Source: Quercus robur (taxonomy: Eukaryota > Streptophyta > Magnoliopsida > Fagales > Fagaceae). From it: 64,000 bases of DNA. Location of the stretch: positions 50,282,354-50,346,353 of the forward strand of contig NC_065536.1 in the NCBI RefSeq assembly GCF_932294415.1, in the 5' to 3' direction. The position numbers and the translations under genes are program-made. Of the stretch, positions 9,895-64,000 are shown piece after piece. Numbering within the stretch: the stretch's first letter is position 1; every line of letters starts with the position of its first letter. The notes under the pieces are model-generated. The model saw only the letters and a list, made by a program, of their open reading frames with translations, was not told the origin of the DNA and ran no database searches.

Positions 9895-9967
9895 GCCCGT
9901 CTAGCTCAGTTGGTAGAGCGCAAGGCTCTTAACCTTGTGGTCGTGGGTTCGAGCCCCACGGTGGGCG
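9895..9967 (+). tRNA. tRNA-Lys (anticodon CTT)
   Basis: A complete 73-base cloverleaf. Acceptor stem GCCCGTC pairs with GGTGGGC (two G-T wobbles) and is followed by a discriminator G. The D arm carries TAGCTCAGTTGGTAGAGC. The anticodon stem CAAGG/CCTTG closes the loop CTCTTAA, with anticodon CTT at 9928-9930. The T arm is TGGGTTCGAGCCCCA. There is no intron. The CCA end is not encoded, as expected for a nuclear gene. Internal A and B boxes would drive RNA polymerase III; a T-run terminator follows at about 9974. Confidence 0.97.
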
Positions 9968-14903: not shown

Positions 14904-17763
14904 TCATCGCCTGCTTTTACCACCTCTAGCTTTCTTCCTCTTGCTTTCCTTGACTTTCTTCTTCCCCGGGCTTTGTTTACTTTGTTCATTGACCTTTTCT
15001 ACTTCAGATTTGGATTCTTCAGAACATTTCATCTGCTTCTTCTTCTGTTGGAGGAATGCAACCAGTCCTGCAAGGGCAATATCGGGGTCTTCACTTTTCA
15101 TAAGCTCTTCTGCAACCTCTGCTGGGGTGACCTCCACCTCTTTAATGAGTCCTTCTATTTCAGTGAAAAGGCAGTGGCTTTCAATTCTTAGGTAATTGGA
15201 AGCAAGGATCTTGAACCCGCTTGGAGTGCAATAGGACATGTGGATGTGCATGTCCATGCGGCCTGGTCTCAACAATGCAGGGTCCAGTCTGTCTTTGTGG
15301 TTGGTTGTGAAGACAATTATCCTCTCGTCCCCACAGCTTGTCCATAGCCCATCGATAAAATTTAGCAATCCGGATAATGTCAACTGTCAATAAGAGAGAA
15401 CAATTTATCATTACAGCTGATCTCACAAGTTAGGTTGGGCTAATCATCTTTACTTCTATTGATTAACCGAAAAAATATGGTTTTAAAAACTGGACTGGAT
15501 CATCCGGTTCGACCGGTTCTAATCCAGTCCGGTTATGCTTAAAAACTGGAAGTAGCATAAAAAGCAAAAAAACCGAAAACCAGCGGTTTAATTGGAAAAA
15601 CCAAAAGACGGTGTGGTTGGACTGGTTTTTGAACAGTTAAGCTAAATGTTAAAAAACAGTATTTTCTATATATATATAAAAAATCAAATATAAACAAAAC
15701 AAAAAACCACATGTTTGCAAAGAGACAGAGGTAAAAATTAGAGAGTGATCTTGATCATGTTTTAAGATGAACTACCTTTACATGACCGTTTTTAACTTCG
15801 CTGATTCTTGAAATTTTCATGGTAGAGAGTGCTGAGAGAGACGAAGAACAGAAGACTGAAAAGGCAGCAGCAAATCTGAAATTTAAGAGAGAGCTTAAGG
15901 TATGTTTGGTGGGGTGATTTTGGGAGGATGAAAAAAGAAAAAAGAAAAAAAAGGAAAATAGGAGAAAAAATGATTAGGTGGGGGAATTTTTATTTTATTT
16001 TATTTTTTAGGCTGAATGGTGGAGGAATTTAATGACTGCTTAGGTATTAGGTCAATACTTTTTTTTTCCTTTTCTTTTCTTCCTTCTCTGTCGATTCCTG
16101 TTTTTCTTTCACTCTCTCCATTCAATGTAACTATTTTTGTGATAAACTCCTAAAGCTATGTATTACTATAATTTATAAAAGAAAAAAACCAAATAATAAA
16201 TAATAGCCATGTTTTGTTTGCTGAAAAAGATAGTCATTTTATAGTGAATAGTGATACAACACAAACATTGATTGACATAAATATAATAGATGCATAATTC
16301 TTTTAATGTATAACATTACCTATAAAATTATAAAGAACCAAACAATTATATATTATTTAAATAATAATAATATATTATATAAGTGATAAATATACTATAA
16401 TATCTAATATATAAATAAAATAATAAATGAACTTTAGTATAACTTTGTTATTATGTGTTGTGATTTATTTTTAAAATTTTTAAAAATATATCTTTAAACT
16501 AAATATGAGTTATAAAATTTAAAATATATACATCTTATTATTTATTTTTATAATTCTAAAATTATTAATTAATTATATATGACGTCACTAGTTGGACCAT
16601 CTATCTGACTTCGGTCGAACCAAAAAACTATTAACTACTCTCTTTTTCGATTCTTCGATGGGTTCGGTTTTTAAAACCATAAAATAGCCTTTGAAACGGG
16701 TGTTTTAAGATGAAAAAGACTGTAAATAGTGTAAATAAGTTCAATGTAGTGGTGTTACAATCTATGAACTCACCTGGTTGTCACTTTTATTGTATCCTCC
16801 ATGTTGCCTATCTTGCAGATCAATGGTACAATCAATATCCTCAATTACAAGAATAGATCTATTTGCAGTAGAGGCTATCAGCCTCCTGAGGTCTGCATTG
16901 CTATGTAGATTCGAAAGCTCCAAATCATAGATGTCAAATTTCAAGTAATTAGCCATTGCTGCTATCAAGCTTGACTTACCTGTACCAGGAGGGCCATACA
17001 AAAGATACCCACGTTTCCATGCCTTCCCTACTCTCCTATAGAACTCTCTTCTCTTCAGAAATCTATCCAAGTCATCCATCAACTCTTTCTTGAGCTTTGG
17101 ATCCATTGCCAGTGTGTCAAAAGTGGATGGGTGGTCAAGATTGACATCTTGATAGCAGTTTCCAAGTGAATAAAGTTTCACCACCTTGTTTTCTTCTTTT
17201 ATGGCCTTTGATCTGTCTACCACATATGGCAGGTAAGTACTGAGCACAATCTCCTTGTATTTCTTGTGGAAACTGAGATGAATTGATCTTTGTTCAGATG
17301 TTTCTGTTGAGTGGAGAGAGGTTTAATAGTCAAAATATGATTTCTGTTTTTCAGTAGAAATGAATTCCCAAATTAAACGTATTCCCTCGAATACATCAAT
17401 AATCTTTTCTCCTTTGTCGATCGTGATGGAGAGGTTCTTCTCACGCGGGGCCTTGGAAACCTTGAGGTGTTTGACTGAGGGGGTGATTATTGTGCTTAAA
17501 TAGATGTCAGAAGCCTGGTAAATTTCATTGATGGAAAGCCCATTGTGTTCATCAATGATGAGAGTAATTTGGGAAGAGAAATTATTAACGAATAGGCCTC
17601 CAAGCTTGGAAGATAATTTTTCTTGGAGTTGTTGAGGTATGAGCTGAGTGGTCATGGTCTGGACCTCACTGATCACTGTCCGGAGCAGCATTGCGGATGC
17701 AGCGAAGGAAGTATATGTTGATAGAACTGATGTTGTTGAAGGAATGCTTGTAAAGGAAAACAT
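14904..17763 (-). pseudogene. AAA-ATPase (BCS1/AATP1-like plant family), long copy with one in-frame stop
   Basis: A plant AAA-ATPase of the BCS1-like group (stress-related ATPases of mitochondria or ER, by family knowledge). Segments (minus): 17763 down to 16774, then 14904-15383, with a GT/AG intron of about 1.4 kb between. The first part starts MFSFTSIPST and carries the N-terminal domain. It then reads through one TAA (17323-17325) into FHKKYKEIVLSTYLPYV. Walker A is GPPGTGKSSLIAAMANYL; Walker B is SILVIEDIDCTIDL. The last exon reads LTLSGLLNFIDGLW, TTNHKDRLDPALLRPGRMD, then a lysine-rich tail ending KARGGKSRR. Total length of about 489 residues is normal for the family. Apart from the one stop, all motifs are intact, and I see no intron that would remove it. 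Options: a young pseudogene, a sequencing error or a null allele. Confidence 0.8.
15465..16720. mobile_element. TIR element inserted in the AAA-ATPase intron
   Basis: It begins ATGGTTTTAAAAACTGGACT near 15478 and ends GGTTCGGTTTTTAAAACCAT near 16680, terminal inverted repeats of about 20 bases. The interior is AT-rich without a transposase. The short duplicate of this gene at 12690-13470 has the same intron without the element (around 13300), which works as an empty site. The exact target duplication is not resolved; bounds are approximate. Confidence 0.6.
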
Positions 17764-35989: not shown

Positions 35990-36733
35990 TCTCTACACTT
36001 CTGTCTCTTTGCCTCTCTACACTTCTTCTGCCTGAAGCTTCTTCTCTATCAACTTATTCTCTTCCAAAGTCATGACTACTACTAAACAAAACCCTAAGCA
36101 AGACCCACAAAAGAAGAAACAGAGTATTTCAATTCCAATCGCTCTCTTTTTTGGAGATGGTGAGGTTTTAACGCTAAGTTCTTCAGTTTTAGTTATATGA
36201 TAAATTCATATTTTGCAAGTCCAAGTTGTTCCTAAAAACAAAAATATTATAATATAGTATAAAATAATTTATAATAAATAATGAAACTTTCTTTTAATGT
36301 TTTGAAGACATCATCAATGATGAGGAAAATTTGGTTAGACTTGGACATGTTACCCCTAACAATATAGATGCAGAACCTTTGAAGAATGCTAAAGAAAAAG
36401 AAATAATTGAATCTTTGTCATCACAAGTTTCAATATGTGAAGATAGTCCAATACTCACTGAAAGGAGAAATACAAGTATTGAACCATTGTCTTGAGGTTC
36501 AGTAAATGCAATCATCAGCAATTACTGAAACATTCAATCCAAAGGTAATTTATCATGAGGTTGCATGTTTATCCTCTTGGATGTTGGGCCTTTTCACTTT
36601 TAAGCATAAGTTTTCCTTTGATCATGTGATATGATGGGTCCTTCGCTATTTTATGGTGTCGGACATGGAAGCTACAATACTATCTTGAATGCCTTTTAGT
36701 TTCTTCTAAGTATTTTCTTAAACCCCCCCCCCC

Positions 36734-36789
<56 letters not shown>

Positions 36790-37340
36790 TAGATTGAGAT
36801 ATTTAGAACAAATGTTATTGTACCACAATTGTGTTTGTTTGGTAGGTGAAATGGTGTACAAAATTTACTAGACATCTATCATGTGTTCTTATAATCCATG
36901 TGTTGTATTTAGTGTGCAGATAAGGAAGCCCTCAATCTTCTACGGTGGCTAGTCACATCTTAGGCTGCTAAAGATATAAATTATGAGTCCTTTGTTGCCT
37001 CCCATTGATAGGGTGCTCGGGAAGGCTAAAATGGATTATAAGAGCAAGTCTAAGGAGCGTCATGACTTTCTTGATTCAATTGTTGACTTGATTGACTTTA
37101 AGGGCTTGAGAATCTTGCGGGCACAAATTCCCTAACTGACTCAATGGATCTACAAAATTAGAATTGTGTTTGTGGAAAACAAGGAGGGGATTTTGTTTTA
37201 TCTGGGCTTGGCAGCTCAGAATCTGTAGTCGTCAACACTCATGAAAAATGTATAGAACTAATTGGCATGACCTTTTGCAAGGAACCCCCCATTGCAAACT
37301 AGACAGATGGGGCATCTGAAATTGCTTCAGTTACACTTAC
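35990..37340 (+). pseudogene. Decayed gene-like stretch of unknown family
   Basis: Several pieces read as protein-like text on the plus strand: MTTTKQNPKQDPQKKKQ (36073), DIINDEENLVRLGHVTPNNI (about 36307), then EKEIIESLSSQVSICEDSP, KSKSKERHDFLDSIVDLIDF (about 37040) and GGDFVLSGLGSSESVVV (about 37183). They lie in different frames, each ending in stops, with AT-rich gaps that could be introns. I do not recognise the protein. A decayed gene is the simplest reading. Confidence 0.35.
36736..36785. repeat. (CT)n microsatellite after a C run
   Basis: About 25 CT units, preceded by a run of C at 36724-36735. Confidence 0.95.
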
Positions 37341-37344
37341 CATC

Positions 37345-40300
37345 TTTAATTTTGATAGATCATTAGGTATCACCTTTTATTTCTAGATTGCATGCAATTT
37401 CTCCAAATTCTTTTCTTACTGATCCTTTGGTAGAGAGGAAAAGAAGAAGAAGAAGAAGAAGAAGAAGCTCATTTTCTACTTTTTATGTTTCTTTTGGGGG
37501 TGTAGGGGAGGGGGGAGGGGGGAGGGGGGAGGGTTGGTGGTGATTGATCTCATCTTGTAGTGCATGTTTTGATAATATGTTTGACCAACTTTAGTCTTTT
37601 TCTTATTAGGGAAAATTTTGGACGATATTCTCCTTTTCTTTTATGGGGACTGTCGGGAAGCAAAAGTCATGGACATTCATGCTAGAATTGGTGGCTCTGA
37701 TTTCAATCATTTGTCTTGGGCATTCTTACTCATTGTCAAAATGTTGGCTCTTACTTGTACCTCTTAACACCAATATTATCACCTCCTTCTACAGATAGTG
37801 TATACATATGACTTTCCTGTGATGACAAAGGTTACCTAGAACTAGTATTTTTTTTTTTTTTTTTTTTAAATTTATCTGTTAAAGACTTTAATTAAATGTA
37901 TTCACTTCCAATTATTTATTCTTCAAAATTTCCAATGTATTACCTTTTGGTTTTGGATTTTCATGCTTCTCATGGGAACAATGTAGCATCAGTGAAGCCA
38001 TAACTTTTGAAAGGAAGTATTATTTATGTGATTTATATGATTTCTAAACTATCTATTGAGTTTCATATGTCCCCTGTAAACAGAGCAACCAACCTCCGAA
38101 CATCACTCAAAATTCCAAATATCTAGTTGTTGTTCTAATTTTCATCAAAGTAGGAGCAAATTATTGTATCACTCCCCACCCTCTGGGGCCAAAAAAACAG
38201 AAGAAGAAGATACAACCAAAGCTCTCTTCACTCTTCAGCTTTTTCTCCTTCTTAGGTTCATTAATTTGTTGTTAATTCAATGATAATTATAAATGGTAAG
38301 GCGTTTTCTGAAGTTTCAGTGAGATTAGGGGTTTGCTTGCTCAGTTCTAAACTTTAGGAAGATATTGTAAATTTAGGGTGAATGTTTGCAAGCTACCCAT
38401 GTTATTTTGGGGGAAGAATAACATTTGCATTTGCAAATGAGAAAGTTCTTATCTATTCTATGACACTTTGCTGGTTCAGCTAGAAGTTTGATTAGTTCAC
38501 AAAGTTCTTTGCTTGATCATTGTGAGAAGACATAAAGCTTTTTCCCTGATGATTCCAACAATGATATGCCTGAATTTGGTTCTGGATCTCATGTAAAACC
38601 TATATTGGAGCATTTGTATCATGAAAACCCTAGAAACCCCCAGAAACCTTAATGCAGAAAGGAGTGCATTTGGTGATGGGGTGATAGCAATAATCCAAGG
38701 TGGAGGAGGCATTGCTTAATAAATATCATGCACTAATTCCTCACACAACATGTCTCAGATTTCAGGACCTCACAGTAAATCAAAGCCTACTCCACTTAGT
38801 CAAAGTGGGTTACAGGACCCTATAGGCATTGGTGGTGGACAACAATTGATATGGTTATGTATAGAGGTATTAGACTACTTTTTTTTATATTTGATATTTT
38901 TGCAAAACCAAATGTACTTTTTAAAATTATTTTCAAAAGATATGTTATCTCAAACCTAAATTCCCCTGGCTATTTTTATTTTTTGCTTTATGTTTTTTGG
39001 AGAACATTCCTATGGGTTTGTATGCTTAATGTTTTCCATGATTATTCAAAATACTCTTCCATATTTCTATACCCATAAATATTTACAATATGATTTTGAT
39101 ATACTTTGCATTTGAAGGTTGTTCTTTTTAAGTAAGGAATTCGTACTTTCTCATACTTAGCACTTGGAAATTCAGTCGTTATGAAGATAAATATTAGAGT
39201 TTATCCGGAATCAGCTTAGTTTGTATTGGTATAGCACCATCCTACCTTTACCAATGTCAACACTGTTAAGTCAACTTGATAGTATTTCAAGATCAGGGAG
39301 AGTTAGAGAGAAAATCTTTGGCTTCTTGGTCTTTTCTAGGAAAATGATAGATTGATAGTAAATTTTCTTTTCCTTCTGAAGTTGTTTGGTGATGAATTCA
39401 CTACCTCTAATTTTAAACTAGTAGTTTCTTATCAAATTATGTATTGTCAAATATTTAGGAATTAGTTGTTTTTATTTTTTATAATTGGTATAACTTATGT
39501 GTATCATTGGGATAAGAAAATTTTCAATACCTGCTTATAAAATTAATCATGGTCTCTTTCTTTCCTTAGGGAATGTATTGGATTATGAATCCATTGTGGT
39601 ATGTCTTGGTATACTGAGACTTATATTGTAGGAGGAGATTAGTGATTATTCATATGATTAAAAATCATTTCTTCCCACTTTTGTTGCTTTCTAGAACTAG
39701 ATAATTAGAATTCGAACTTTATTTATGCTTGTCATTACTTTTGGATCAAATGATCTTTCAATAAATTCTCTCTTAAAATTTTATAATTCAAGCAGAATCT
39801 AGAGGAGATCTCGATTTTTCTTTCCACTGCTAGTTTTGTGTTGAGTGTGACTTGATGTTTTAAAACTTTTTGTAATGTGAGCGCAATTGCTAATGGGTCT
39901 AGCCTGGAAATGGAAAAATCTACTCATATGTGAATGTCACTTTTATTTTGTTACTATCAGGTGAAATTGAGAATGGGGGGTGACCATGTGAATGTCACAT
40001 GGCCACTAAAGGCACTTAAGGGTAATGCCCATGCCCTTACCCTTAAGGAAATTAAAAGTTTTCCCTAAATATTGGTGAAAGTTGGGTGGGTGTTGGTGCA
40101 TTTCAGAAAATCATCTTCATGTTTATTGCAATGGACATAAATATCGAGAAAGAAGAATTTTTTTATTTTATTTTTTATAAATATTGGAAAGAGATAAGAA
40201 GATAACTTCTAACACCACAACAAAGTGTGTTTTGTTTGTTGCTTCTCTTTAATTTGAAGGCTAGGGGTTGGGGTTGCTTTAGCTTGGTATCTTCACTCTT

Positions 40301-40780
40301 ATTCTTTTGATGAAGATCGATTTTCTTCCTCTCCTTTCAATTCCTTTTCTTTGGCTTACTAAAATTATTATCTATTTGTAAAAGAAGGGGAAAAGTGGGC
40401 AATGCTTCTTTCTTATGTATCACCCTGCTTGAATGTCGCTTATATAACATTCATGGTACTGTGTGTGTGTACACTTGTGATTTTTACTAGTTGGTCGCTT
40501 TTGGTTTTTGAGTTACATTTAGGTGGGCGGGCTATTCTTACACATTTTTTAATCTCTTATATTCATAACATTTTGTAATATAAAATTGGAATAACTTGTT
40601 CAAATGTTGTGTTGTGAACCTGACTATGTATGTTGCTGGCTCTTGGAATGTTACAGTTGGTTTGGACAACTTTGAGACCTATGCCATAAACATTGTTTGA
40701 TGCCTTCATTATTTTCTCTGTTATGGAAGATCACTATTTCTAATTGCTTTTCATAATTTTCATTTATTTATAGGACTCTA
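37345..40780. other. Intergenic, no recognised gene
   Basis: Contains (GAA)n near 37437-37467, a G-rich GGGGGA repeat near 37500-37533 and a T run near 37850. Short stretches look weakly coding (around 38580-38720) but give no recognisable protein. Confidence 0.5.
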
Positions 40781-40799
40781 GATGGAATATCTAGTTGCA

Positions 40800-41191
40800 A
40801 GATGTTGGTTTTCTTTGAGGAGAAGTACATGTTGAGTCACTTTATGAAGATTGTCTGTTCATCTGACCTAGAAATAATAATGGGTTGGGGTATTCAAGGT
40901 GGTTCTCTTGGTTTTTTGGCAAAAAATGCTTCAGTTTCCACTTTTGAGGGAAACTTGGGATTATGTGACTCTCTATTGTTAAAAAAATGTGGAAATATTG
41001 AGCCACCAACTTATGAAACAAGGCAAGAATGATTAATAGTAGAAGGATTTGATTGGAAAGTGATTGTGATAGGATATGCTTGTGGATTGATAATTGGACT
41101 AGTTATTGCGTATTTCGCCACCTCAAGAAGGACAAATTGGTTTGTGAGAAATTTGGAGTGCACTTATGTAGGTGATGATGAGGACAAGTAG
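40800..41191 (+). pseudogene. C-terminal fragment of an LRR receptor-like protein (Cf-9/RLP type)
   Basis: The end of a plant receptor-like protein, a cell-surface immune or developmental receptor with LRRs, one membrane span and a short tail. The last LRR cap reads STFEGNLGLCDSLLLKKCG; this is followed by acidic linker text, then FDWKVIVIGYACGLIIGLVI (membrane span) and YFATSRRTNWFVRN. The coding text ends at TAG (41189-41191). A TGA separates the cap from the membrane part, and the LRR domain upstream is missing, so this is a truncated relic. No other RLP piece is in the window. Confidence 0.8.
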
Positions 41192-43725: not shown

Positions 43726-44000
43726 CTAACCAGATTGATTATATAATAAGAAATTAAAAATTTTTTTTTTTGAGAAATCAAATAAGAATAATAATCACAC
43801 AAGGTTAAAATGTCATTTTCAAATATAGAAGGGGATTCTTTTGACATTTCCTAAAATCTCATAAGGTGTTAGTGTAATTTAGTTTTACTATTAAACAAAA
43901 TATTCTAACAGAGTAACAGTGGACTATCCAGGATTTTTTTTTTTTTTGATAACTGGACTATCCAGAATTTAACAAAAGAATTGGGGGGAAAATTGCTATG
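41920..44000. other. Intergenic with MITEs, no gene seen
   Basis: AT-rich. Contains the inverted-repeat element at 42675-42849, a poly(A) run at about 43681-43720 and unrelated AT repeats. Text at 43430-43510 may be tRNA- or SINE-derived but is too diverged to call. Confidence 0.5.
42675..42849. mobile_element. MITE with about 38-bp terminal inverted repeats
   Basis: It begins ATGCTAACGAGTGCTCTTAA and ends TTAGGGCACTCGATAACAT. The arms share GGCACTGGTTAAGAATCCA, found reversed as TGGATTCTTAACCAGTGCC. The interior is short and AT-rich. Confidence 0.8.
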
Positions 44001-46858
44001 TTGACATTCTCTGGGATTACAAATCTGCAATAGTGTGCCACAGAAGCTTTCAAGGTTACTTATAAATTTTCAATTTCCCTCGAAACTCCCAAAATTCAAA
44101 ACCTTCCCTCTTTCTTCCTATTCCATACCCAGAAGCAAAATTTCATGGCATTCCCGTAAATTCGAAGCCAATCAATGGCAGATTCGCAGTCGGATTCAAA
44201 CGTCTTAAGTGTTCGGATCGTCTCCATCGATCACTACATGGCTCCGCCGACCCATGGCCTTGATATCTCTTACAGTTCCTTCCAAGGTACTCTCTACTTT
44301 CACTCTCAAACGACGCCGTTTAATTCCTTTTTTTTTTTCCTTGTTTTTCGTAATATTTTTTAAATGTTTGATTTTAGAAATAGAATTCTCAATTGAAAAG
44401 AAAGTGAAACTCATTTCACAATTTTCGAAATATATATTATGAAATTACTTTTTTTTGGGGGCAAAAATACAATTACCAAGTTGAAATTTTGTCAGCTTTT
44501 ACAAAACTATCATTTTAGTTTCTCTGTCCATTGTTAACTGTTACAATTGCAAAACGTGTTTTTAAAGCTCAAGATGCTGTTTGCGACAGCAACTTCTGGT
44601 ATCGTTTTTCACAAATGCTCATTTTAAACCCAAAACAGTGTTTCGCATCCTAAAATGACAACTTAAACGGAATAATATATATATCACAAAATTAATTCTA
44701 GGGGTGTAATTGTATTTTTTCACCTTTTTGTTTTTAAAATGAATTTATTCTTAAACTTACTATTAGAGATGTTATGGGAAAAAAAGGTTTATATTTATTG
44801 TCCCTGCATTTACTTGTAGAGCAAGCATAAAAATTTTAGTCTAGGGTTAACTTAAAATTGGGTTCTCTAGTATATAAGCTTTACATTGGCTTCTTCATTT
44901 CGTTAAGTTGAATAAACAAGATGTAGTTGTCAAGGGCGAGGCCAAACTACGTTAAATTCTTGCTTCCGCTTTTTCCTTTTTTTTTTTTTTTTCTTCCAAT
45001 CGCTTGACAACTTTAACACTTACTATTGTAAAGAGAGTAAGATTTGGTTTTTTCAAATTTTGATTTACCTAAAAAGTCCTTGTTAAATAGTTCGAAACAG
45101 GTGGGTAATATTAAAATATTTATAACTGCACAGATTGTAGGTATAATAGAATTTTACTTAATTATTTTTATTATTAAAAAAAAGTCTTTGAGAATCCGTG
45201 AAGACTCTTGCACACTTTGCTGTGGTGAAAAAATGTTCAAGTTAAAATGTAGTTATTTATTTTTCCAGGGAACCAAACATAGAGCTAGGAAAATGGTATT
45301 CATAGAAATGTACATTGCGTGTTAAGTGGTATTTGAATTCTTGAAGGTGGCAAAGTGAATGAGGTTCCTGTAATAAGAATATATGGTTCTACGCTGGCTG
45401 GTCAGAAGACTGGCTTGCACGTCCATGGGGTAAGATCATTCCTGTTTTTCTGGCTTCTTATTGAATGTTATCAAAAGCTTGGATTCGTCAATTTTCCTTG
45501 AATGCAGTAGTTTAAATAGGCATATCAAAGTTTATGAAGTTATATATTTCTGCTTTTGGTTATGTTGAGAAAATGGAGGGAAAATTAGGACACGCATTTT
45601 CTTCTTAAATATCAAAATTTAAGTCCTGCCTACTTTGAAGTGAAATTTGGTGGGACTTAAAAGGATATTCCAAATCCACCTTTCATTTTTTTCTCTCTTT
45701 TCAATTGCACATTGGAAAAATTTATTTCTAAAAAATTATCTTCTTTTCTATTTTCTGGTGGTGAATCAACATTGTGCTAAAGGTGAGTCCCAAAGGTTCT
45801 TCTTTAAAAAGGTTCCCTATGTTATCAAGAAAAAAAATGTTTGAAATAACAGATACTACATGCTATGTAAAGCAATAATTCATGTATAGAGTACTTTAAG
45901 CATATGAAAAGTGTTTGAAAATTACTCTTCCTTTCTTTCTTTATTAGTACATTGTTATTCTTGACTAAATTATCCATATTTTTTGCAGGTATTACCCTAT
46001 TTATATGTGCCTTGTGCAGATATATCGCTTCAACCACATGAGGAAGGTAGATAATATTTTTTGAATTAAGCCAATGGAATAAAAATTGGATTTATGTAGC
46101 CGCTCCTAGTTAGTTAGGGTCAATTTTTTTTTAGTTGATATTGTGAATTTGTGCTATATATATATATAATTTTTTTTTTTAATTTATCTCTTAATTTCAT
46201 TTCGGATGTGATATCTTCTTCCATCCTAATGTGAAATTAAGTTTGTCTGTCCTGATGTTAAGATGTACTGTGATTTTTGCTGTCTAGTTTTCTGCTCTAT
46301 ATATGCTTTAGATATGATTCCTATTTAAAATTTCTGAGTTTATCCTTTTTCTTGTTAATATGCATAGGTGATGCATACACATGCTATTTCTCTTGCTCTT
46401 GAGAAAGCTTTGAAGGTATGCTTGGTTGCAACAGGTTTTGTTCTAACCTCTGTGTTGTTTGTTAATTGGTGTTTCTGCAATTTGTCCTTTGCATTGCTGA
46501 TCCTGCAGGCATCATATGTTTTTGCTTTGGTTTGAACTCTTACAGCTTAAAGGTAATGCTGGTTCAAAGTGACAGCATGTACATGGTTGCAGCCTTGTAT
46601 GAGCAAGGAAATTTTATGGTTACCATTCATCTGAAGAGCTTTTTGTGAAAATACATCTGTATCCAAACATTATACTATCTTTCTTAGAGTTCTCTTATAT
46701 TCATATAATAGTCTAAGAGTATGTTTATTGAACACCTTGACAAAGATATAGCTATTATCCGCATGATGTCTCCCGTGCTACCAAACTTCTTTTGGTACAC
46801 TTCTTGAACCTTTGACTGATGCTCAATTGTTTTTTGGAATCCTTTTGTGGTTTGTAAC

Positions 46859-46882
<24 letters not shown>
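46859..46882. repeat. Poly(T) run in a REV3-copy intron
   Basis: A T homopolymer of about 24 bases in intronic sequence. Confidence 0.9.
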
Positions 46883-46890
<8 letters not shown>

Positions 46891-47586
46891 AAAAAAACTA
46901 CTTTATCTTTGCTTGCTTACTTAGTTGAGCCTTTTTCCTTTGCCTTGGCTATTTCTTGTCAATTTCTTTTTTTGATAAGTTCTATATGGTATTTTCTTCT
47001 TATGTACTTTACTGAGATTCCTTTACTTATAAGCTCTATTTGTTTCAATGGAAAACTTTGTGTAAAGATAGTTTTCCTTGTTTTCTAGTATTTGGTAGCA
47101 TTAGAAAAAAATGATTAAAAGGAAAACTATTTTTGTTAAACAAAAATGTATGACTTATTTTTAGAGATTCTCTTCAACTAATTGGAAAACAACTCTATCT
47201 CACAACAAGCTAAATAAAATAAATTAGGAGATTGTTTTTCAACTCATTTTAGATTGTTACCAAACATAAGAAAATGAGATTGTTTTATAGAAAATACTTT
47301 TTGGAAAATGACTCATTTTCTAGAAAATATTATCACGGAAATGAACAAAGTGATAATTTATAATTGTACATTTAAGGTTTGTGTTTTAGATGATTTTTCA
47401 TCAAAGCATATAGGATGCCATCCTTTATGGTTAATGTGCATGATTTGGAGTACTTTCAAAAATAATTTCTTTAAGAGTGATGTACATTAATCAATGCCCT
47501 CCTTTCAAATGTTGTGACCAATTGGTTGGAATTTGCTGTGACTTTTGCAAGTTAGATTAAGAGAATTATTGTTTGTAGAAGTTTTT

Positions 47587-47727
47587 GGGCCCGTTTGGTA
47601 TGTGTGTTTAAATAACAGTTTTCATTTTTTTTTGGAAATACGTGTGAGTGAAAAAGTATGTGGAAATGCGTGTAATATTGTTTAAAAACTGAAAACATGT
47701 GTTTAAAATGATGTACCAAACAGCCCC
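47587..47727. mobile_element. hAT-like MITE in a REV3-copy intron
   Basis: Starts GGGCCCGTTTGGTATGTG and ends GATGTACCAAACAGCCCC. These are the terminal inverted repeats of a very common plant hAT-type MITE style. Total length 141 bases. Confidence 0.7.
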
Positions 47728-49761
47728 TTTGTCGCCCAAGCATTTACATTTTTTAGTCAGGTGATCTCTAGCAATATATCTGTTTAGTGTTCAGCATACA
47801 AATGCATCACTTATTTTATTGTTTGTAGACATTGCATGGACATTGTCACCTATGTTTGTTTAAACCTTTTTTATGGCCTCTAAATTTTAATTAAAGGTGA
47901 ATTTTGTTTAGATTCATCGTTTTATTTTCTTTTTGCAGATGTGTTAGAATGCCTGCTTTTTAAAATAGTAATACTTTCTTTTCAGGGTGGTACAGTTCTT
48001 GATGGAAGTTTACAGCCCTATGAATCGCATATTCCCTTTATTCTCTAGTTTCTGGTAAATGCTTCCCTATGTTTGAATCATTGATTTAATTTTGTTTTTG
48101 GGGGCTGTCTAAAATTGAAAACTGTGGTTCCAAAATGATTCTTAGTTTGTAAGATACTTACAATATCATTATTTTATGTTGAGGAATGCTAACATAGTCA
48201 CCCACTAGGCAATTGGCAATGAGGTGCCGGTGGGTTGGCAACATGTGTACTCTTGGGAACCACTATTTTTGTGCTCCTCATAAGACATTTATGAGGTGGG
48301 TCCCATTGTGATGCATTTTTCTGACTCACAATTAATATTCATTCTTGTGCAATGTTGACATACTTTAATTCAATTTTTGTATTGTTTTACATTTTATGAG
48401 ATCTAAGCTTTTCTAATTGTCAGATTGATTATAACTTGTACGGGATGGGCCATATGCATTTATTAAAGATGAAGTTCTGTCATCCAATACCAGACATTTT
48501 CTCACCAAGGAAATCTAATCATATTGGTTTGCATAAACAGCATATGGATAAGTTGACCTGCATGCCTACTGATTTCCAGGTTATCTTTTTCTCTCTTTTC
48601 TGCTCCAAATGCTTTTGGGATGAATGTAAATGTTTGTCTGCCATAATTATGTGATAATCATTAATGATGTGTGAATTTACCATTAGGCAGACCCAAGTTG
48701 TGATGCATCGTTTAGTTCACCAATTTGGATATCGTCGACAATTCTAGCTGATTGGATATGGCAATTGCCTAGAGAGTTTGAGGCTTCCTCACGCCAGGAT
48801 ATTTATTGCAATAAACGTCGAAGTGTCTGTGAACTTGAGGGGGATGCTTCCATAGATGGTTTGTTTGACTTTTGCAGTTATATCACATTAGTTTTTTAAG
48901 ATTCTCTTTATAGTTTAATGTGAGAATTGTTCTTTTGGGTTTTGCAGACGTTCTTAACCAGCAGTTTAAAAATTATTCATCCCTCTCACAAACCCGTTCA
49001 GAAGTGAAAATGGTTCAGTCACTTGTGCCAATATGGGAGGTCTGTTTTAGTCACATCCATTTTCTTCCTTTTGAGGGTGATCCCAAGAAGCAGATTTTGA
49101 CTTACACTGAGGCAGTGAGGACAATTGATCCTATGAAAGCTGTGGGGAAACCTCATACATTGTGGGTTAACTTTGCTAGGCTTTATGAGAAGCACAGTGA
49201 TCTTGTCAATGCCAGAGTTATATTCGATAAAGCAGTTCAAGTCAACTACAAGGCTGTGGATAATCTGGCTAGTGTTTGGTGTGAGTGGGCAGAGATGGAA
49301 TTGAGGCATCAAAATTTCAAAGAAGCATTAGAGTTGATGAGGCGAGCCACAGCAGAGCCGTCAGTGGAGGTCAAACAAAAAGGTGATTCTAATCCTTCCT
49401 CATCTAATGTTTCGTTCCTTTTGTTACTGTATATTTCATGTTTTGTAGTTATTGATAGAGCAGGGAATTGTTTTTGGGCTTATATATTATTGCTTTGGGT
49501 CTATTTAAGTTTATTGGGCATTTAGAGTTAAGTTTTTGGACCAATTTAACATTGGTGTGGTTATTTTGGGTCCATGTTTTTAGTCCATAAAATCATGTTG
49601 ACTCTTGATTCTCCTGATTTTACGATCCTATAAACATTCCATTTTTGTGATGGTTTGAATCTTATAAATGATTTTAGCTTGTAGGGGTTCCAAGGAATTT
49701 TTTTTCTAAATAACAATAAATATTAAAAAATTTAGTTAATTGTCAAGTTTCAAAACAATAT

Positions 49762-50121
49762 TGAAAACTAGCATCTCAAGTGTCTAAAACTCGAGTTCCA
49801 AGATAAGACTTGAGTTTTTAAGTCTCGATTTGTAAGTGGCTTAGGGTAAGGTGGGAAAAAATCAAGCTGAAAATCGAGTTTTAAAGACCCGATTTCCACA
49901 AATTGAATAAAAACGCCGCTATAGGTCTACAAAACGTCACTATAGGGCTTAAAAACGCCACTATAGGACCCCCTAAACCTGTACTTAAAAAGATTTTTGC
50001 AGGAAAACGCCGCTATAGGGATTTAAAACGTCACTGTAAGACTTTAAAAACGCCATTATAGGTGAAATTTTTTTTGATAAAACTTGAGATCGAGTTTCTA
50101 AAACTCGAGATGCTATTTTCC
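49762..50121. mobile_element. Fold-back element carrying a CGCCGCTATAGG-type array, in a SYF1-copy intron
   Basis: The ends are inverted repeats: TGAAAACTAGCATCTCAAG on the left and CTCGAGATGCTATTTTCC on the right, with ACTCGAG motifs in both arms. Between them, variants of AACGCCGCTATAGG occur about six times (49910-50062). No coding potential. Confidence 0.7.
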
Positions 50122-50174
50122 TTTATTATTTCAAATGTTGTCTAACTAACTATATACAATCCTTTTGCATTGCT

Positions 50175-50300
50175 ATTTTGCACATTACCTCGGGTTCCAA
50201 GTGATAGCCCAATCATAATGGCATTCTTTGTTGTGCCCCATGTCTGTGGTTCGAAGTTCAAGCCCTCTCTTCCCCACTATTTACCTATCAAGAGAAAGGA
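50175..50300 (+). mobile_element. Possible SINE fragment
   Basis: tRNA-like internal promoter text: GTGATAGCCCAATCATAATG (A-box region) and TGTGGTTCGAAGTTCAAG (B-box region). No clear tail. Low-confidence family call. Confidence 0.35.
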
Positions 50301-52974
50301 TTTTCGATTTTATGATCCCAATTTTAACAACCATGCTTACATTCTATATTGGTGATTTCATCCAACACTTTAAAGTTCGCACTTCAAGAGAAAAGAAAAG
50401 AAAAGAAAACGATTGTAGTCGCAGAGTATTGTGGAACCTAACTAATATTTGAGCTTGTTTGTTTTTATTTGCAGTGGCTGCTAATGGGAATGAACCAGTG
50501 CAGATTAAGCTCTACAGATCCTCGAAACTCTGGACCTTCTATGTTGACTTAGAAGAGAGCCTGGGTACCTTGGAGTCCACAAGGATAGTGTATGAGTGGA
50601 TATGGGATCTAAGAATAGCCACGCCTCAAATTATTCTCAATTATGCATTTCTGTTGGAGGTATGGGCTTTCCACCAATGGTTCTGCTGTTATGTTCCTTT
50701 AGTTTTTAGTTTTTACTTTTAGTGGTTTCAATCAATTAACAAAATTTTGCTGTTAATGTGTGGAGGAACATAAATACTTTGAAGATGCATTCAAGGTATA
50801 TGAAAGAGGTGTGAAGATTTTTAAGTATCCACATGTAATGGGTCACATACCTCTCAAAGTTCGTAAAGAGATATGGAAAGGCAAAACTAGAACAGGCAAG
50901 AGAGCTGTTTGAGCATGCTGTTGAAATGGTATGCACCTATTATGAGTTCAGATTAGGTTTATTCTGGTAAATATTTATGGTGGGGTGTTGAACTGAGTTT
51001 ATGATCATGTCTGTATTCAATTACCAATTTGCTAAATAATGATGATGGGCTGGAGGAATAAAGTTGGATCAAGAGCAAAAATGTGGGAGCAGAGGGGTTA
51101 GTTATGATCGTCAAAATAATTACATCTTATTGGCTTTAAGTTATTTTGAAATGCTTATAGGGATTCTTTTAAGTAATGTAGACTGCATCACATCCATTTA
51201 TTAGAAGGATTTGCTTTTAATAAATGCAATATTAGTTTTGAGTTAGGGGAGTTAATCTAGCTCATAGGGGGTTTGGATCTATAACAAAAATTTACAGGTG
51301 CATTTTTAATGCTTTTTCTTTTTCAGAGTCAAGAAAAAGATTAAAATACTAGATGTTGTGAAAAAATATCTTACCTTGGATTTATGTATAACAATACCTG
51401 TTTTGAGGAGTTGTTTAAATATGGATTATATATTCTTTCTTGTTGCCACTTTTGGATTATTCCTCCTGGATCACTGATGTTATGCCTATTATATACTGAG
51501 TAGTGAATTTAGTTTATATTATTATTTTGAATGGTTCTAAAATGTGGTCTATCACAATTAATGTTATTAACATTGTTTGATTCTGACCTTCATCATGTTC
51601 TTTTCTCTTGAATATCAGGCGCCTGCTGATGCAGTAAAGCCTTTGTATCTTCAATATGCAAAACTGGAGGAGGATTATGGTCTGGCCAAGCAAGCTATGA
51701 AGGTCTATGATCAAGCAACAAAGGCTGTTCCAAACAATGAGAAATTGTGCATGTATGAAATTTATATTGCTCGAGCGGCAGAAATTTTTGGTGTCCCAAA
51801 AACTAGGGAAATATATAAGCAAGCAATAGAATCCGGTCTTCCAGACAAAGATGTGAAGACCATGTGCTTGAAGTATGCTGAGCTTGAGAAGAGTCTAGGA
51901 GAAATTGATCATGCTCGTGCAATATATGTATTTGTGTCTCAATTTGCAGATCCGCGATTTGATGTGGATTTCTGGAATAAGTGGCATGAGTTTGAGGTGC
52001 AACATGGAAATGAAGACACTTTCAGAGAAATGCTTCGAACTAAAAGAAGTGTTTCTGCAAGCTATAGCCAGGTAATTCAATTATTGTTAATTCCCTTCAC
52101 CCCACCCCATTTTACCTGCACTAGTAGTGGCTTCAAATAGTGTTAGTTTTACTAATATTCCTATTCACAAACAATATCACAAAATGAATTTTTCTCTAGA
52201 CGCACACTTACCACTAGTCATAAATTGGATGAAATTCCTAGCAACAATCTATAACTAATGTCAGTAGACTTAGGAATAGCTTTTCGATGGGGTAGTTACT
52301 GCATTGTGTTAGGAAATGGATAGATCTTCTGATTTAGCTCATCATTTCTTTGGTTTAATTAATTCATCCAGAGTCCTCTTTTCTTTTTACTGAAACATTC
52401 TTATTAGTTTAAAGAGGAAGTTGAAAGGGCAGAGAGAGGATGGGAGGCAAGAGACATGTTCAATTTACACACAAAAACACTCATCATTTTTAATTCTCAC
52501 TTTGATCGTTTTTGCAGACACTATATCTTGCCGGAGTATCTGATGTAAAAGGATCAGAGATTGAACCTTGATGATGCAAGAGACAAATTGAAACAGGCTG
52601 GGGTTGCTGAAGATGAAATGGCTGCTCTCGAAAGGCAGTTAGTTCCTGTGGTTGACAATGGTGCTGCTAAAGATAAGAACAGAAGAGTTGGCTTTGTCAG
52701 TGCAGGTGTGGAATCACAATCCGAAGGAGGTATAAAAGTTACTGCAAATCATGAAGACATTGAGCTACCAGAAGAAAGTGATTCAGATGATGATGACAAG
52801 GTTGAAATAGCCCAAAAAGACGTTCCTTCAGCTGTTTTTGGAGGCTTGGTTCGTAAGAGAGATGAGGCCGACAATGATGCAGAAGCACAAGATGTCACTG
52901 CTACTAAAGAGAAGGATAGTGACAACCGCCTTCGTGCCCTAGAGAGAATAAAGAGACTAAAGAAAGCGTGATTA

Positions 52975-54720
52975 TTTATGGCCAGAAGCAATCAGTCTGC
53001 ATTTAAAAAATTTGTAGCTTTAGTACTAAACTCCAATTTTATACTTGAGCCGTCCCTTAAAGAAAAATTAGTTGTTATCATCATGGATGAAATGTTTTTC
53101 TTGAAATTAGGGGGATGAGAATTGATGGGTGAACAACTTGTCAAAGAAAAGAAATTAGGGCTAGAAATACTTCCTCTTAACTTTTGTCAAGCAGATTTTA
53201 GTATAAAATCTAGTAAACATGACATTTTCATCAATTTATTGGAAGTGTTTGTTAGTGAGACTTAAATAAGCTAGTCAATTCAACTCCACCTAGCTATCAT
53301 AAGTTTACAACATGATTTATATTTTCTTATTTTATGCTCTCTTTGATAATTAGTCCTTAATATGATGTAGAGTTCTTTTTATTTTATTTTATTTTTTAAT
53401 TTTTAGATTTAGTAGGAAAACCAAGATGAGATGTGGTGTTGACATGGAACCATGGGCATTAGAATGCCACGTATTAGAGTTTGAGAGGGAATTTTCTTTC
53501 TTACTAATTCTCATTAAGAAATGAATAATGAGTGGTTTTTTGCTCACCTAGAGGGCATTCTAGAATTTAGAATCAATCAACACATTTTCAAGTTTTTAAC
53601 TAGTAAATGCTAATCTATATTTATATCTATATATATCTAAAAGCAGAAGTGTAACATTTATTGTTGTTATGTTTATGTTGTGCCACTTCATCCGTCATGT
53701 CATTGGCCACATAATCATTCTTTTTCTTTTATATTTTTTATACATCCATCTTGGGCGTTAGTTGTCCGATTTAATCAAGCTCCATAGACATAGACAAACA
53801 TAGAGAATAAAATCTAGACTTGAGACCTTCAATTTAATCAAGCTCCTTAGACATAGAGAACAAACACATCTGAAAATAATTGATATGTAGGGAAAAAAAT
53901 TCTTTAAAAAAAAAAAAAAAAAACCTTTTTCAATTCAGTAAATTGACACCATATAGTAGGAAACAGATTAACACCTTCACATCTGTGTACGGAAAGAAAT
54001 TCAAGTCAATACTACTGATAGCTCCTACGATTAGATTATATCACTCCTTCCAATTCCAAATAATATATTGACAGCCCCTGAATTGAAATCCAATTATTTG
54101 CAAACCACAATAAATAAAACAAAAATTTAAGATAAACATCCAATTACCTTGGTCCTTCCAAATTGGCACCCACTATTTGCTTTTTATTCTGTATTTTTAT
54201 TGGGCTCTTTGTTCGTTGGAGTGTGATTAACGTAAATTTGCTTATATATTTACACGTTTATTTTTGTGTGCGTGATTTTCCTGAATATTTGTTTTTATTA
54301 GCAAAACGAGCCTGACTTGGGGATATTGTAGATAATGTGATTATACCTACGAATTCATTGTGGTGCATGGAGTATTGTAGGATTTGAATGTAGCACATTA
54401 TCTTTATACGTAATGCATATTGTATTATATGTTTTACAAAACCTTTCAAAATTAAAATTCATTAGATGTTAGCCAAGTTTAACAAGAAAAGTAGTTGATT
54501 ATTCTTGAATATAAGACATATATGAGTTGGAATCACTTATCTTGTTCAACATGAGAAAGGTTATTAGAAATTTAAACAAAAAATTACGTATAGGCTATTT
54601 TATTTATAAGAAAATTTATAATTAAAAAAAAGAAAAAAGAACTGGTATAAGGAATTATTATATGAAGTTATTACGTCCAATATTCCTCTCTTAACGTTGC
54701 AGATGTTAGATACGCATCTA
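52975..54720. other. Intergenic after the SYF1 copy; Helitron 5' fragment
   Basis: Possible 3'UTR to about 53100. Positions 53632-53750 (ATATCTAAAAGCAGAAGTGT, then AACATTTATTGTTG) resemble the 5' end of Helitron B, and no 3' end was found. Parts of 53110-53230 and 54375-54440 resemble 61475-61600 and 61395-61465. No gene seen. Confidence 0.5.
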
Positions 54721-55590
54721 TGAATCTCACTTAATCAAAGAGAGATGGAACAATTGAATGAGATATCACTTCCTTTGGTTCTAGATGGAGGAGGAATGAA
54801 TACTAGTAGTGGGTTTGTGGGAGAAATTATTCTACACAATCCTTTTAGGAGCAAGAATGCCAGACGAATAAAAGGCAATTCCCCAAAACAGGTCCCATGG
54901 AGATCCGAGTTAGCCACTATTACCGAAACTCTTACCCAAGGTAACAAGCATGGTTTGCCCTTCGGTGGATACATAGGGGACCATAGGCAACCGATTCCCT
55001 TTTTTGCCCCGAGATGCCACCAGCCCACAACCATCATATTTGCCTTGGGAAACACCCTGAAAAGATAAGAATCACAAAGGCATTAATGAAAGGTTCTTTA
55101 CTTAATCTTTTCCACATTAAATGCATATAGATTAGCTTGAACAGTGCAGACACTGCCAAAAGTCCTATTTCATGATGGAAGGGGGCAGAACAGAGGAGTA
55201 ATGTGACAAGTATCTTGAAAATCCAGCTAGAAGCAAGCCACCGGGGGAGATAGGGGAAGGAAAAATGTCTATAAAAGGGGAGGAGGGTGCAATAGAGAAG
55301 AGGTAGAGAGATATTAAGAGAAACGTCTAGGAAAGAACAAGAGAGAAAATATTGCTCCAGTTGAAGAGAGATAATAATTTTTTAGCTTTCTATGCAACTC
55401 TTTGTATCTCAGGAGAGCAGTTTATATATCAAAGGATAATCTTGTCATCCCTCCTTTCTTCTTAACAGTTGTTTAGATCTCCCATTGTGGAAATTCTACC
55501 TTGTATTTCTTATAAATAAATTGTGTATGTCAGTTACTTAGTCATTGTACTCAGCTACGTTGTTTGTTTTTTGACCCCCACAGTAAGCAT
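54720..55590. mobile_element. LTR-like fossil
   Basis: GC-richer than its surroundings, with a TATA-type motif (TCTATAAAAGG near 55268), purine-rich leader-like text and an end GACCCCCACAGT near 55575. Frames on both strands at 54735-55068 are open but unrecognised. It is most simply an old LTR-element fragment; the family is not assigned. Confidence 0.4.
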
Positions 55591-55656
55591 ACATAAGAAT
55601 AACATTATATGAAAGGAGGTTGTTATAAGGATTAAAATCTTCTAGTCTACTTTCTC

Positions 55657-55688
<32 letters not shown>

Positions 55689-55764
55689 CTAGTCTAGAGT
55701 TATTGGAGTAACTCTATTATTATGATTAAAATCTTATCCAATACATTTTGAAATGAGTGAATTA

Positions 55765-56460
55765 TTAGTATATACTTCATAGTTAATATTTAAAGAAACA
55801 TTGACAATCATTAATTTAATATTTATTTAAATCATAGACCTGGAACACCACAAAAAGATGCTATTATTGTTGAGCTATTAGCCTATTACTTAAATCTTTA
55901 TTTGGAAATCTAGTTGAAATTACCCCAAGTTTTAAGAGTGTAAAATTCAAAATAAACCCTTAAAATTTATGGTAATTTTAATTTTTCCTTTAAAATCTGA
56001 TAATTTAGATCCTCCCATCCATGCATCATGATGAGGTGTCTACTAAGCACCACCTTAACTCAAAATCATGTAGTTTTGGATCTGCATTTTGAAAATTTAG
56101 GAGACAAAATTAAAATTATCTCAAACTTTAGTAGCATAAATTGCAATTTAGGCAAAATAATATAAGGGATGACTTTAATAGAGAAACAGTGCAATTTTGA
56201 AGTTTGAATGAATAAACATCATTTTGGGCTTAGTTGGCACTTAACAAGCACTGCATCACGGTACATTGACAAAATGACTTAAATGAGTAAAATTGATATT
56301 ACCCCAAATATTAAGAGTGCAAATTACAATCTAATCTTCAACTTATTATTCATGAAAAAATATTAATTTATACAAAGATGAGTGGAGATATGGTGGTGCC
56401 AACTTATTAACGGTGGAGATGTTGTGGTACCGACTTAAATAACAAGCAATTGCGCTTCAC
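55765..56460. repeat. Duplicated block, copy 1 (with 59250-59950)
   Basis: Parallel text with 59250-59950: AACACCACAAAAAGATG against AACACCACAAAAATATGATA, then TTAAATCTTTATTTGGAAAT, TACCCCAAGTTTTAAGAGTG and ACTAAGCACCACCTTAACT. Diverged, with small indels. No gene within either copy. Confidence 0.7.
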
Positions 56461-56539: not shown

Positions 56540-56871
56540 GTCAAAAAAAAAAAAAAAAAAAAAAGTGGATTGGCCAATTCGAGAAAAAGTTTTTTTTTTT
56601 TTTTTTTTTTTTTTGAAATTATTAGTCCATTGAGTAAAATTGGTTAATGAGACTTGTCAGTAGTTGATTTGAATGGACTAAACACTAATAGTTGACTATA
56701 AAATGTGACCATTATCGCCGTATTCATTGGTATTGATTCAAGTAGACTATTTTAACTCTTTATTCAGCAAAAAAGAAGAAGAAGAAGAAGAATAATAGTT
56801 GACTATAAAATGTGACCATTATCGCCGTATTCATTGGTATTGATTCAAGTAGACTATTTTAACTCTTTATT

Positions 56872-56911
<40 letters not shown>

Positions 56912-61822: not shown

Positions 61823-64000
61823 TGTAAGAGCACAATTTATAGCCCAAACCCTAGATGTATTGGATCTTGGCCCAATGAGCCTAATACAATAGACTTGTAG
61901 AGAGTGGGTGAAAGAACTAGGCCTAATGAATTGGACAATGGTTAGTACTGAATTAAATGACAATCAAACACAAACGAAAGGTTCTGAGATTAATGGACTT
62001 TCAGTCTGAGGAGGTCACACTTGTATAGATTGATCACAGTTGGATACAGAGATAATTTAGATTCCTAGATGTATTGGATCTTGGCCCAATGAGCCTAATA
62101 CAATAGACTTGTAGAGAGTGGGTGAAAGAACTAGGCCTAATGAATTGGACAATGGCTAGTACTGAATTAAATGACAATCAAACACAAATGAAAGGTTCTG
62201 AGATTAATGGACTTTCAGTCCGAGGAGGTCACACTTGTATAGATTGATCACAGTTGGATATAGAGATAATTTAGATTCCTACAGTGTTCTTTCTTTATTT
62301 TTTCAATCCATTTCTCATGGAGGGTCTCTCACATTATATAGCTCTTTTTGGACCATCTTGATCCTATACTTGTTGATCATCTGGGTCTTTTCTTGAGTAC
62401 TTATCCCATCGGACACCTTCTCTGGTTTTCTGTGAGTTACGGTAGCCAAGGCAGCACTGTTCAGAGGTCTTCTCCACATAAATGCTGTCAGAAAAGTAGT
62501 TGCAGTGCATTTAATGTAGTGGTAATAACTTTCCCTTAGATATTTTTGAGTTTCCTTCCTTCTCATATGTTCGTGAGGCAAGTCCCTATCGTTGGAGCTT
62601 CTTGGAGGGTCACTCTAATTACTGGAGTACATACTTGAGTTGCCTTTATCATATCCGAGAAGGAGTTCGTCCTTGGACCACCTTCCATTCGTTCCTTACT
62701 CATAAGACTTTTAATTGGAACTCCTGATAACTATTTATTCCTCCTCAGACAAAGCCCAAGGCCCAATGTATGATTCTGGGCCCTTACCCCTACAATAGCC
62801 CCTCAAAACTTCGATTTTTCTCTCTCATCGGAGGAGAAAAAGTGGGGTTTTGATTTTTAAGAGATAAGACCAATTGATCCCTTGATTCACAAGTGGGGGA
62901 GTGCAGTTTTACGTGCCTCATAATTGCTACTGATGCTTCGTAGCCCACGAGGCGTCATTAATTGCTCCAGTGGCTTTATGTTCCTCACATCCAACGGCGA
63001 GGCGCCAATCCAATGGTTGATATTTTTCCTAGAATTTTGAGCGGGAGTATTCCCACTCATTTCCTCCCTTTATATAAAGCCTTGAGGGAACCCGTTTTCT
63101 TCTTTACTTCACAAATCTTCAAGTACTCCAGAGAATCCCAACGCTCCAACTCACAAAACACTCTAAATTCCTAAGCCTCCGTAACTCTTTCCGTGAGAAA
63201 TTTTCGAAAGATTATTTCTAAAGGACCAAGATTAACACACTTACCTTTGTAAGTTTCTGTCTCTTAAAATTTTTCTTATTCTCCTCGGCCAACTCCTCCA
63301 CCTTCTTTCTCCAAAAAATTTCTTTCGCATCTTCTTAGTTTGTTCAAATGGGTAGATTTAAATATCTAGTTAACTCTCCAGCTGGCATGGAGGGTTTTAG
63401 GGCCAAGTACCATATCCTCCAAGGGGTGGTGTTAGAATATTTTTCTACAGACCGAATACTCACGGACAAAAAAGTGGGTGAAGTTGTTATTCCCATGATT
63501 GCTTTCATAGAGGGAGGAATGACGCTTCCCATGGGTAGGATAACCAAGAATTACCTGATTAATGACAGACTAACTCCCTATTAGTGTGCCCCTAACCTAT
63601 TTAGAGTCTTGGGCTGCGTAGATGCTCTCAACGAGTAGATGGGCTTAGGGCTCACGAGTCATGATGTGGTTCACATGTACGAGTGCCACAAGCTCGCCGA
63701 TGTAGGATACTATCTCAAGTCCCATTTTGACGTTGTCAGATTGATATCGTGCCTTCCTAAGTCGAACTAGGGCATGAAGGATGACTACCTTATTGTCTCT
63801 GAGGAGTGGAATGATGGTCTTCACTGCCCAACTCGAGCAGGAGATCCAGGTGGGGTACCTTAGGATTAGGTCCCATAGCAAGGATATTAGTCATCTTATA
63901 TACTCTATATTTTTTTATAACTATCTTAACATTTCACCTTCTCGGATAGTAGTTCTTATTTTCCTAACCACAATTTCCTCCTCGGATTTTTTGCAGATAA
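61823..64000 (+). mobile_element. LTR retrotransposon fossil, left part, cut by the window edge
   Basis: It starts TGTAAGAGCAC at 61823. An LTR-like leader contains an internal 214-bp tandem duplication (61850-62063 and 62064-62277). A TATA-type motif (TTTATATAAAG) lies near 63067, and a reading frame opens at 63348 (MGRFKYLVNSPAGMEGF, DKKVGEVVIPMIAFIEGG), resembling the putative gypsy-type plant transposon (gag-like) family. The frame is broken, with several breaks. The inner LTR boundary and primer-binding site are not resolved. The element continues past 64000. It looks moderately young from the near-identical internal repeat. Confidence 0.65.
61850..62277. repeat. 214-bp tandem duplication in the LTR-like leader
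   Basis: Two adjacent units begin CCTAGATGTATTGGATCTTG at 61850 and 62064. I count about four differences, so they are roughly 98 percent identical. Confidence 0.93.

Follow-up and report, generated by a model that had tools for sequence, protein, structure and literature searches.

An oak locus in which the 5′ half of REV3, the gene for the catalytic subunit of DNA polymerase zeta, runs directly into the 3′ half of the unrelated gene SYF1, which encodes a spliceosome scaffold, appears on sequence grounds to be an unprocessed, non-functional chimeric pseudogene. It lies on contig C3 (NC_065536.1) of Quercus robur, in a stretch of 64,000 nucleotides analysed here as a whole and called the window (C3:50282354-50346353, forward strand), and it runs exactly from the A of the REV3 ATG (44175) to the last base of the SYF1 stop codon (52971). 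Introns are retained, lesions are found in both halves and intact parents exist elsewhere in the genome. We put at about 85% the probability of the whole explanation developed below, namely that the locus arose by duplication, insertion of filler DNA, one deletion and decay.

An earlier sequence-only reading had described ten segments of the REV3 N-terminus with introns, followed in line on the same strand by five exons of the C-terminal half of SYF1, also with introns. This description is borne out: REV3 exons 1-10 occupy 44175-49039 and the SYF1 exons 49070-52971 (Table 1). AG/GT splice borders are retained at all ten REV3 exons, the first beginning with ATG. A genomic rearrangement of partial copies had been proposed in the same reading, and a retrocopy (processed pseudogene) is indeed rejected by the introns present in both halves; moreover, DNA beyond the exons was also copied, that is REV3 upstream sequence from 43781 and DNA 3′ of the SYF1 stop. 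While its rearrangement stands, that reading was silent on the decay of the locus, its stepwise origin, an older REV3 fragment at 36307-40933 and the related arrays.

Both parents are intact, as that reading had suggested should be checked. REV3 is found on the minus strand at C3:10.73-10.75 Mb, with exons 1-10 open and a catalytic open reading frame (ORF) of 615 amino acids, stop-free over C3:10734065-10735411. SYF1 lies on C5 at 83662162-83666788 (83.66 Mb), with a coding sequence of 930 amino acids whose sole stop is at its end. Their identities are supported by PDB matches of the spliced intact REV3 exons 1-10 to ‘DNA polymerase zeta catalytic subunit’ (4.4e-27) and of the long first-exon ORF of the C5 parent to Syf1 (best 4.9e-203), and the window ORF 48914-49522 matches Pfam HAT_Syf1_CNRKL1_C (2.6e-37). 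A polymerase-domain search gave 13 rows, one being intact REV3, one a REV3 copy with a stop at C3:50373826 and 11 lying on C6, C39 and C4. Long pieces of the window are 92-94% identical in DNA to the parents, with E near 0, well beyond chance. The REV3 half is closest to intact REV3, at a Kimura two-parameter distance (K2P) of 0.054-0.089 in four blocks.

The junction itself is found once. A 1101-base query spanning it was searched against the assembly (785.7 Mb, 42 contigs) and gave 24 match rows, 23 of 23 candidates being scored; among these 24 matches the window alone covers both sides. Two rows, C3:10910711 and C5:83663377, hold SYF1 only, and the remaining 21 match REV3, falling at 16 places other than the window once five short rows are merged with longer ones within about 2 kb.

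An open frame (ORF 48914-49525) crosses the junction, leading from REV3 exon 10 over 30 bases of intron into SYF1 exon 1, which we take to be chance. Four premature stops and three frame-shifting indels are spread over both halves. An active fusion gene was accordingly rejected, one frameshift and three stops preceding the junction and more lesions following it. A splice from REV3 exon 10 into SYF1 exon 2 would break the frame, since REV3 exons 1-10 end in phase 0 and SYF1 exon 1 in phase 1. As for selection, REV3 changes polarised against other copies give 18 nonsynonymous (stops included) to 7 synonymous on the window branch and 3:6 on the intact branch, 3 of 37 being left unresolved. For SYF1, 988 sites could be compared in three copies: 12:1 changes are specific to the window and 6:3 to the copy in the array C3a (see below), while 6:10 are common to both versus C5. 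Against ratios of nonsynonymous to synonymous sites of 3.6 (REV3) and 3.8 (SYF1), these small counts suggest no constraint on the window's own branch in either half.

Table 1. Features of the chimera and its surroundings, in window coordinates. Exon borders were set by comparison with intact REV3 in the same genome and with SYF1 on C5, the start of SYF1 exon 5 by eye. R-numbers are positions in intact REV3; C3a, L003 and the type-A and type-B copies are other REV3-bearing stretches presented in the text.
Feature	Position	Strand	Remarks
REV3 5′ half: about 400 bp upstream of ATG, exons 1-10, introns 1-9	43781-49039	+	
REV3 exons 1-5	44175-44286, 45347-45429, 45989-46046, 46368-46415, 46546-46658	+	compared with intact REV3
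REV3 exons 6-10	46752-46794, 47986-48054, 48424-48579, 48687-48858, 48948-49039	+	compared with intact REV3
5′ remnant of REV3 intron 10 (30-33 bases, donor GT kept), stopping at breakpoint	49040-49072	+	aligned to intact REV3 and L003
Breakpoint: 3-bp microhomology TTT common to REV3 intron 10 and SYF1 exon 1	49070-49072	+	
SYF1 exon 1, 3′ part, from FEGDPKK codons	49070-49382	+	
SYF1 exons 2-5	50475-50659, 50766-50928, 51619-52071, ~52518-52971	+	introns kept, to stop codon
2-bp deletion, REV3 exon 4, frameshift	46376-46377	+	also in C3a type-B copy
CGA>TGA stop, REV3 exon 5	46570-46572	+	also in L003
Second CGA>TGA stop, REV3 exon 5	46600-46602	+	also in both type-B copies checked
CAG>TAG stop, REV3 exon 7	48046-48048	+	absent from intact gene and L003
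8-bp deletion, SYF1 exon 3	50836-50837	+	
2-bp deletion at start of SYF1 exon 5	52518-52521	+	common to C3a copy
CAA>TAA stop, SYF1 exon 5	52546-52548	+	absent from C3a copy
497-bp interspersed element in SYF1 intron 1	49695-50191	+	10-bp duplication GGGTTCCAAG at 49685-49694 / 50192-50201
Flank in common with C3:10.906-10.909 Mb	53107-55973	+	K2P 0.039-0.040; REV3 3′-flank-like pieces inside 54437-55835
Right copy of the 32-bp target duplication bounding the C5-derived insert	53109-53140	+	
Older REV3 fragment, mid-gene, R7911-R14921 in pieces	36307-40933	+	blastn, six main pieces, 78-84% identity
3′ remnant of leucine-rich-repeat receptor-like protein gene, right after older REV3 fragment	40934-41152	+	tblastn with C1 protein, 74% over amino acids 1073-1146

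How the two halves met can be approached through an array on the same contig, at C3:10.74-11.03 Mb (hereafter C3a), which carries REV3 pieces and leucine-rich-repeat (LRR) receptor-like protein (RLP) genes. On one strand C3a presents, in order, the end of a type-A REV3 copy, an RLP 3′ remnant with its flank (10951093-10949041), the REV3 copy L003, a type-B REV3 5′ piece, a SYF1 copy and DNA resembling the REV3 3′ flank. The window has a type-A end, the RLP remnant and flank, the REV3 5′ half, SYF1 and the same right flank, an arrangement obtained if C3a 10944915-10911141 (33.8 kb) is removed. Most simply, in an arrangement like that of C3:10.91-10.95 Mb, a single interstitial deletion repaired by end joining would have brought REV3 intron 10 next to the middle of SYF1 exon 1. 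Complete adjacent REV3 and SYF1 genes at this place in a sister genome had been named beforehand as an observation that would speak against a rearrangement; no such pair lies here, although the same contig holds an array of partial REV3 copies and one partial SYF1 copy in the same order, the breakpoint positions being 33.8 kb apart. Between the window and C3a, K2P is 0.022-0.041 in SYF1 and 0.039-0.040 in the right flank, and the right part of the window is, from these comparisons, a diverged paralogue of the SYF1-bearing C3a stretch.

The C3a SYF1 copy retains exon-1 sequence upstream of the breakpoint that is missing from the window, which places the fusion after the divergence of these two copies. 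A junction shared with C3a was suggested by the start of the C3a SYF1 match at 49074 and was rejected, C3a continuing upstream into SYF1; this copy has its own small deletion near the breakpoint position. The 497-bp element, present in neither the C3a nor the C5 SYF1 copy, came into intron 1 of the window copy at a later time, and its 10-bp duplication suggests that it is MULE-like. It has many genome copies (1580 candidates at first look, 40 of them scored) and internal repeats of about 21 bp.

The entry of SYF1 into the array is documented by both filled and empty sites. C3:10917934-10909005 (minus strand) is copied from C5:83655598-83666900 and has suffered internal deletions, the start of SYF1 being lost in one of them. 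The source span is about 11.3 kb long, starting about 6.6 kb 5′ of the SYF1 ATG and continuing beyond the stop codon, and the donor segment persists, SYF1 being intact on C5. This copy interrupts one type-B REV3 unit and is enclosed by two copies of a 32-bp sequence, which ends both flanks (site edges C3 10918011/10908968), with one mismatch in the right C3a copy; 48 bases of other origin separate the left 32-bp copy from the C5 DNA. Four other type-B units are known. In three of them (L047, L048 and L049), the 32-bp sequence occurs once and the left flank passes straight into the right one. C3:50357233 likewise is an empty site carrying the sequence once; it was missed by our best-match scan, from which imperfect copies can escape and which therefore gives no total copy number. 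The fourth unit, C3:50383423, has the left junction in common and matches the insert over its first ~46 bases before diverging, and looks like a further descendant of the insertion. Such an insertion would correspond to double-strand-break repair with copied filler DNA.

REV3 pieces are numerous in this genome. Over the tested exons 17 REV3 places were counted, intact gene and window included, and at least 17 partial copies exist besides the intact gene, on C3 and, for one, on C1. They are located at C3:10.74-11.05 Mb, C3:50.318-50.402 Mb and C1:27.61 Mb, and all these places also hold genes of one LRR RLP subfamily. In a tree of 17 copies, the REV3 piece of the window groups with the intact gene and its near-full copy L003 (support 94/93, below the level that the tool marks with a star), separately from the B clade and the A/C1 clade; the older fragment does not span the tree region. 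By blastn, L003 together with the stretch that continues it (C3:10947092-10935296) shows 95-96% identity to REV3, and its K2P to the intact gene is about 0.02. L003 begins at R3628, past exon 1, and is devoid of R15464-18132, the region of the catalytic domain. Taken with its neighbours (C3:10935296-10948959), it forms a long recent REV3 copy without exon 1 and catalytic region.

The RLP genes or remains at C1:27609243-27612701, C3:50368214-50371534 and C3:50389032-50392362 lie directly 5′ of REV3 fragments, and the two C3 loci scanned as LRR proteins. Querying the whole genome with residues 1-300 of the C1 frame gave 135 rows (a lower bound, 131 of 3384 candidates being scored). Ten of them, at 82% identity or more, correspond to eight loci at C1:27.6, C3:50.37-50.39 and C3:10.78-11.05 Mb, all in or beside the three REV3-bearing places, while rows at 78% or less are mostly elsewhere. 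Within the arrays RLP genes and REV3 pieces are on the same strand. Several RLP genes in these places have open frames of 1082-1258 amino acids. The REV3 pieces share the RLP cluster with varied spacing and seem to hitchhike in a resistance-type cluster, whose duplication would have carried them along.

Several observations weigh against the proposed history. The halves differ in depth, K2P being 0.059-0.097 to L003 in REV3 and 0.076-0.079 in the left flank, against 0.022-0.041 to C3a in SYF1 and the right flank. L003 is without exon 1, which the window keeps. These two features imply that the window was not copied from the C3a stretch as it now stands. Lesion sharing is also conflicting: one exon-5 stop is found in L003 as well, the other and the 2-bp deletion of exon 4 in type-B copies, a pattern expected from recurrence or conversion. 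Taken together, these divergences, the loss of exon 1 in L003 and the conflicting lesions indicate that the left half belongs to a lineage that is older or was converted separately. Two different units may have been joined, or gene conversion may have acted, and unequal divergence leaves the exact donor unit uncertain. Pairwise ratios of nonsynonymous to synonymous divergence from the intact genes are 0.28 for REV3 (95% interval from resampled codons 0.13-0.61) and 0.24 for SYF1 (0.14-0.42), not 1, so part of the divergence arose while the copies were constrained. Finally, no RLP gene is found within 2 kb upstream of any of the six type-A REV3 copies of C3a, and an RLP gene directly upstream of every REV3 copy was rejected on this count. 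Two of these six upstream stretches hold REV3-upstream sequence and four show no match above 150 bases to the stretches compared.

The same unequal divergence of the halves from C3a and the same lack of exon 1 in L003, to which may be added that window and C3a are 39 Mb apart and in opposite orientation, would also be explained by ectopic end joining or template switching that linked a REV3 copy at one place with a SYF1-bearing unit at another. We regard this as a tentative possibility, less probable than a C3a-like deletion: five parts match C3a in order and orientation on one strand, and one deletion suffices. An artefact of assembly, with separate REV3 and SYF1 pseudogenes wrongly fused at 49.07 kb, might be suspected, as both halves belong to repeated, error-prone arrays and the junction is present once. 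It is quite unlikely, given that the window contains no N, that the assembly has so few contigs for its size and that the order REV3, SYF1, REV3 3′ flank recurs at C3:10.91-10.95 Mb. Moreover, among the matches no other place is identical to either half, so that the true continuations of both would have to be missing as well.

Instead of break repair, a transposable element (a Helitron or a Pack-MULE) could have moved the SYF1 segment, and capture of gene fragments by such elements is documented in plants (PMC3445842). The insert nevertheless follows one continuous C5 stretch apart from its deletions, and a 32-bp duplication bounds it. Helitrons generate no target duplication, while Pack-MULEs have terminal inverted repeats and a duplication of 9-11 bp; 32 bp fits neither. 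Its edges, read by eye only, displayed neither terminal inverted repeats nor ends of the Helitron type, and no search was made for other insertions sharing these ends. Transposition is an unlikely explanation. Retention of REV3 upstream sequence, of the exon 1-10 splice borders and of the SYF1 3′ end might also evoke a locus transcribed from the REV3 upstream region, a source of regulatory or small RNA against REV3 and SYF1. This is very improbable: the locus shows no constraint on its own branch, and the REV3 matches to the 1101-base query are unidirectional within each place, with no evident hairpin. The bolder idea of a chimera transcript, as one RNA or small RNAs, matching both a polymerase and a spliceosome scaffold, through which a resistance-type cluster would tune mutagenic repair and splicing in trans, is hardly credible. 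Under duplication, filler insertion, deletion and decay, every step is of known type, and the locus is an ordinary fossil without sign of function.

Elsewhere in the window, a U1 spliceosomal RNA gene was found at 12042-12200 (137.7 bits, full-length model), with a tRNA-Lys (CTT) gene about 2 kb away on the same strand (9895-9967). Pieces of an AAA-ATPase gene of the At3g28540 type occupy 14904-17322 (minus strand), the Pfam AAA and lid domains being detected in two ORFs. Two tandem duplications, at 61850-62281 (214 bp, 98%) and 56686-56881 (107 bp, 100%, 1.8 copies), are near-perfect and therefore probably recent. In the arrays, C3:10928005-10934205 and C3:50401839-50407920 display long open frames resembling, by eye, LINE-type reverse transcriptase and endonuclease.

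The empty site, its filled counterpart, a relative that is still unfused and the fused product coexist in one genome and constitute a clean stepwise record of how plant gene clusters can give rise to chimeric pseudogenes. They also call for caution in annotation, as automated prediction might yield spurious REV3 or SYF1 paralogues at this locus and at the remaining REV3 pieces of the arrays. A literature search returned no title on this chimera or on REV3 arrays, most subscription papers being outside its reach. Like plant unprocessed (duplicated) pseudogenes, the locus is partial, keeps its introns, carries stops and frameshifts and has intact parents elsewhere; unlike the usual ones, it combines two unrelated parents in one unit, via duplication, insertion and deletion.

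Wicker et al. (2010) reportedly described how genes are moved by filler DNA when double-strand breaks are repaired. The SYF1 insertion echoes it, a gene-bearing segment being copied to a new site with target duplication, and empty sites being found. Target-duplicating insertion of copied genomic segments during break repair is also described in PMC3445842 and PMC4423477. The rice fillers at transposon excision sites given in PMC4423477 measure 1-123 bp, whereas here a 32-bp target duplication accompanies a source span of about 11.3 kb. Tandem clusters of LRR-RLP and other resistance-type genes are reported in the oak genome (PMC6086335), and the arrays share with them the local amplification of the LRR-RLP family. 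They differ from the clusters described there in holding, within the cluster, partial REV3 copies and a copy of SYF1.

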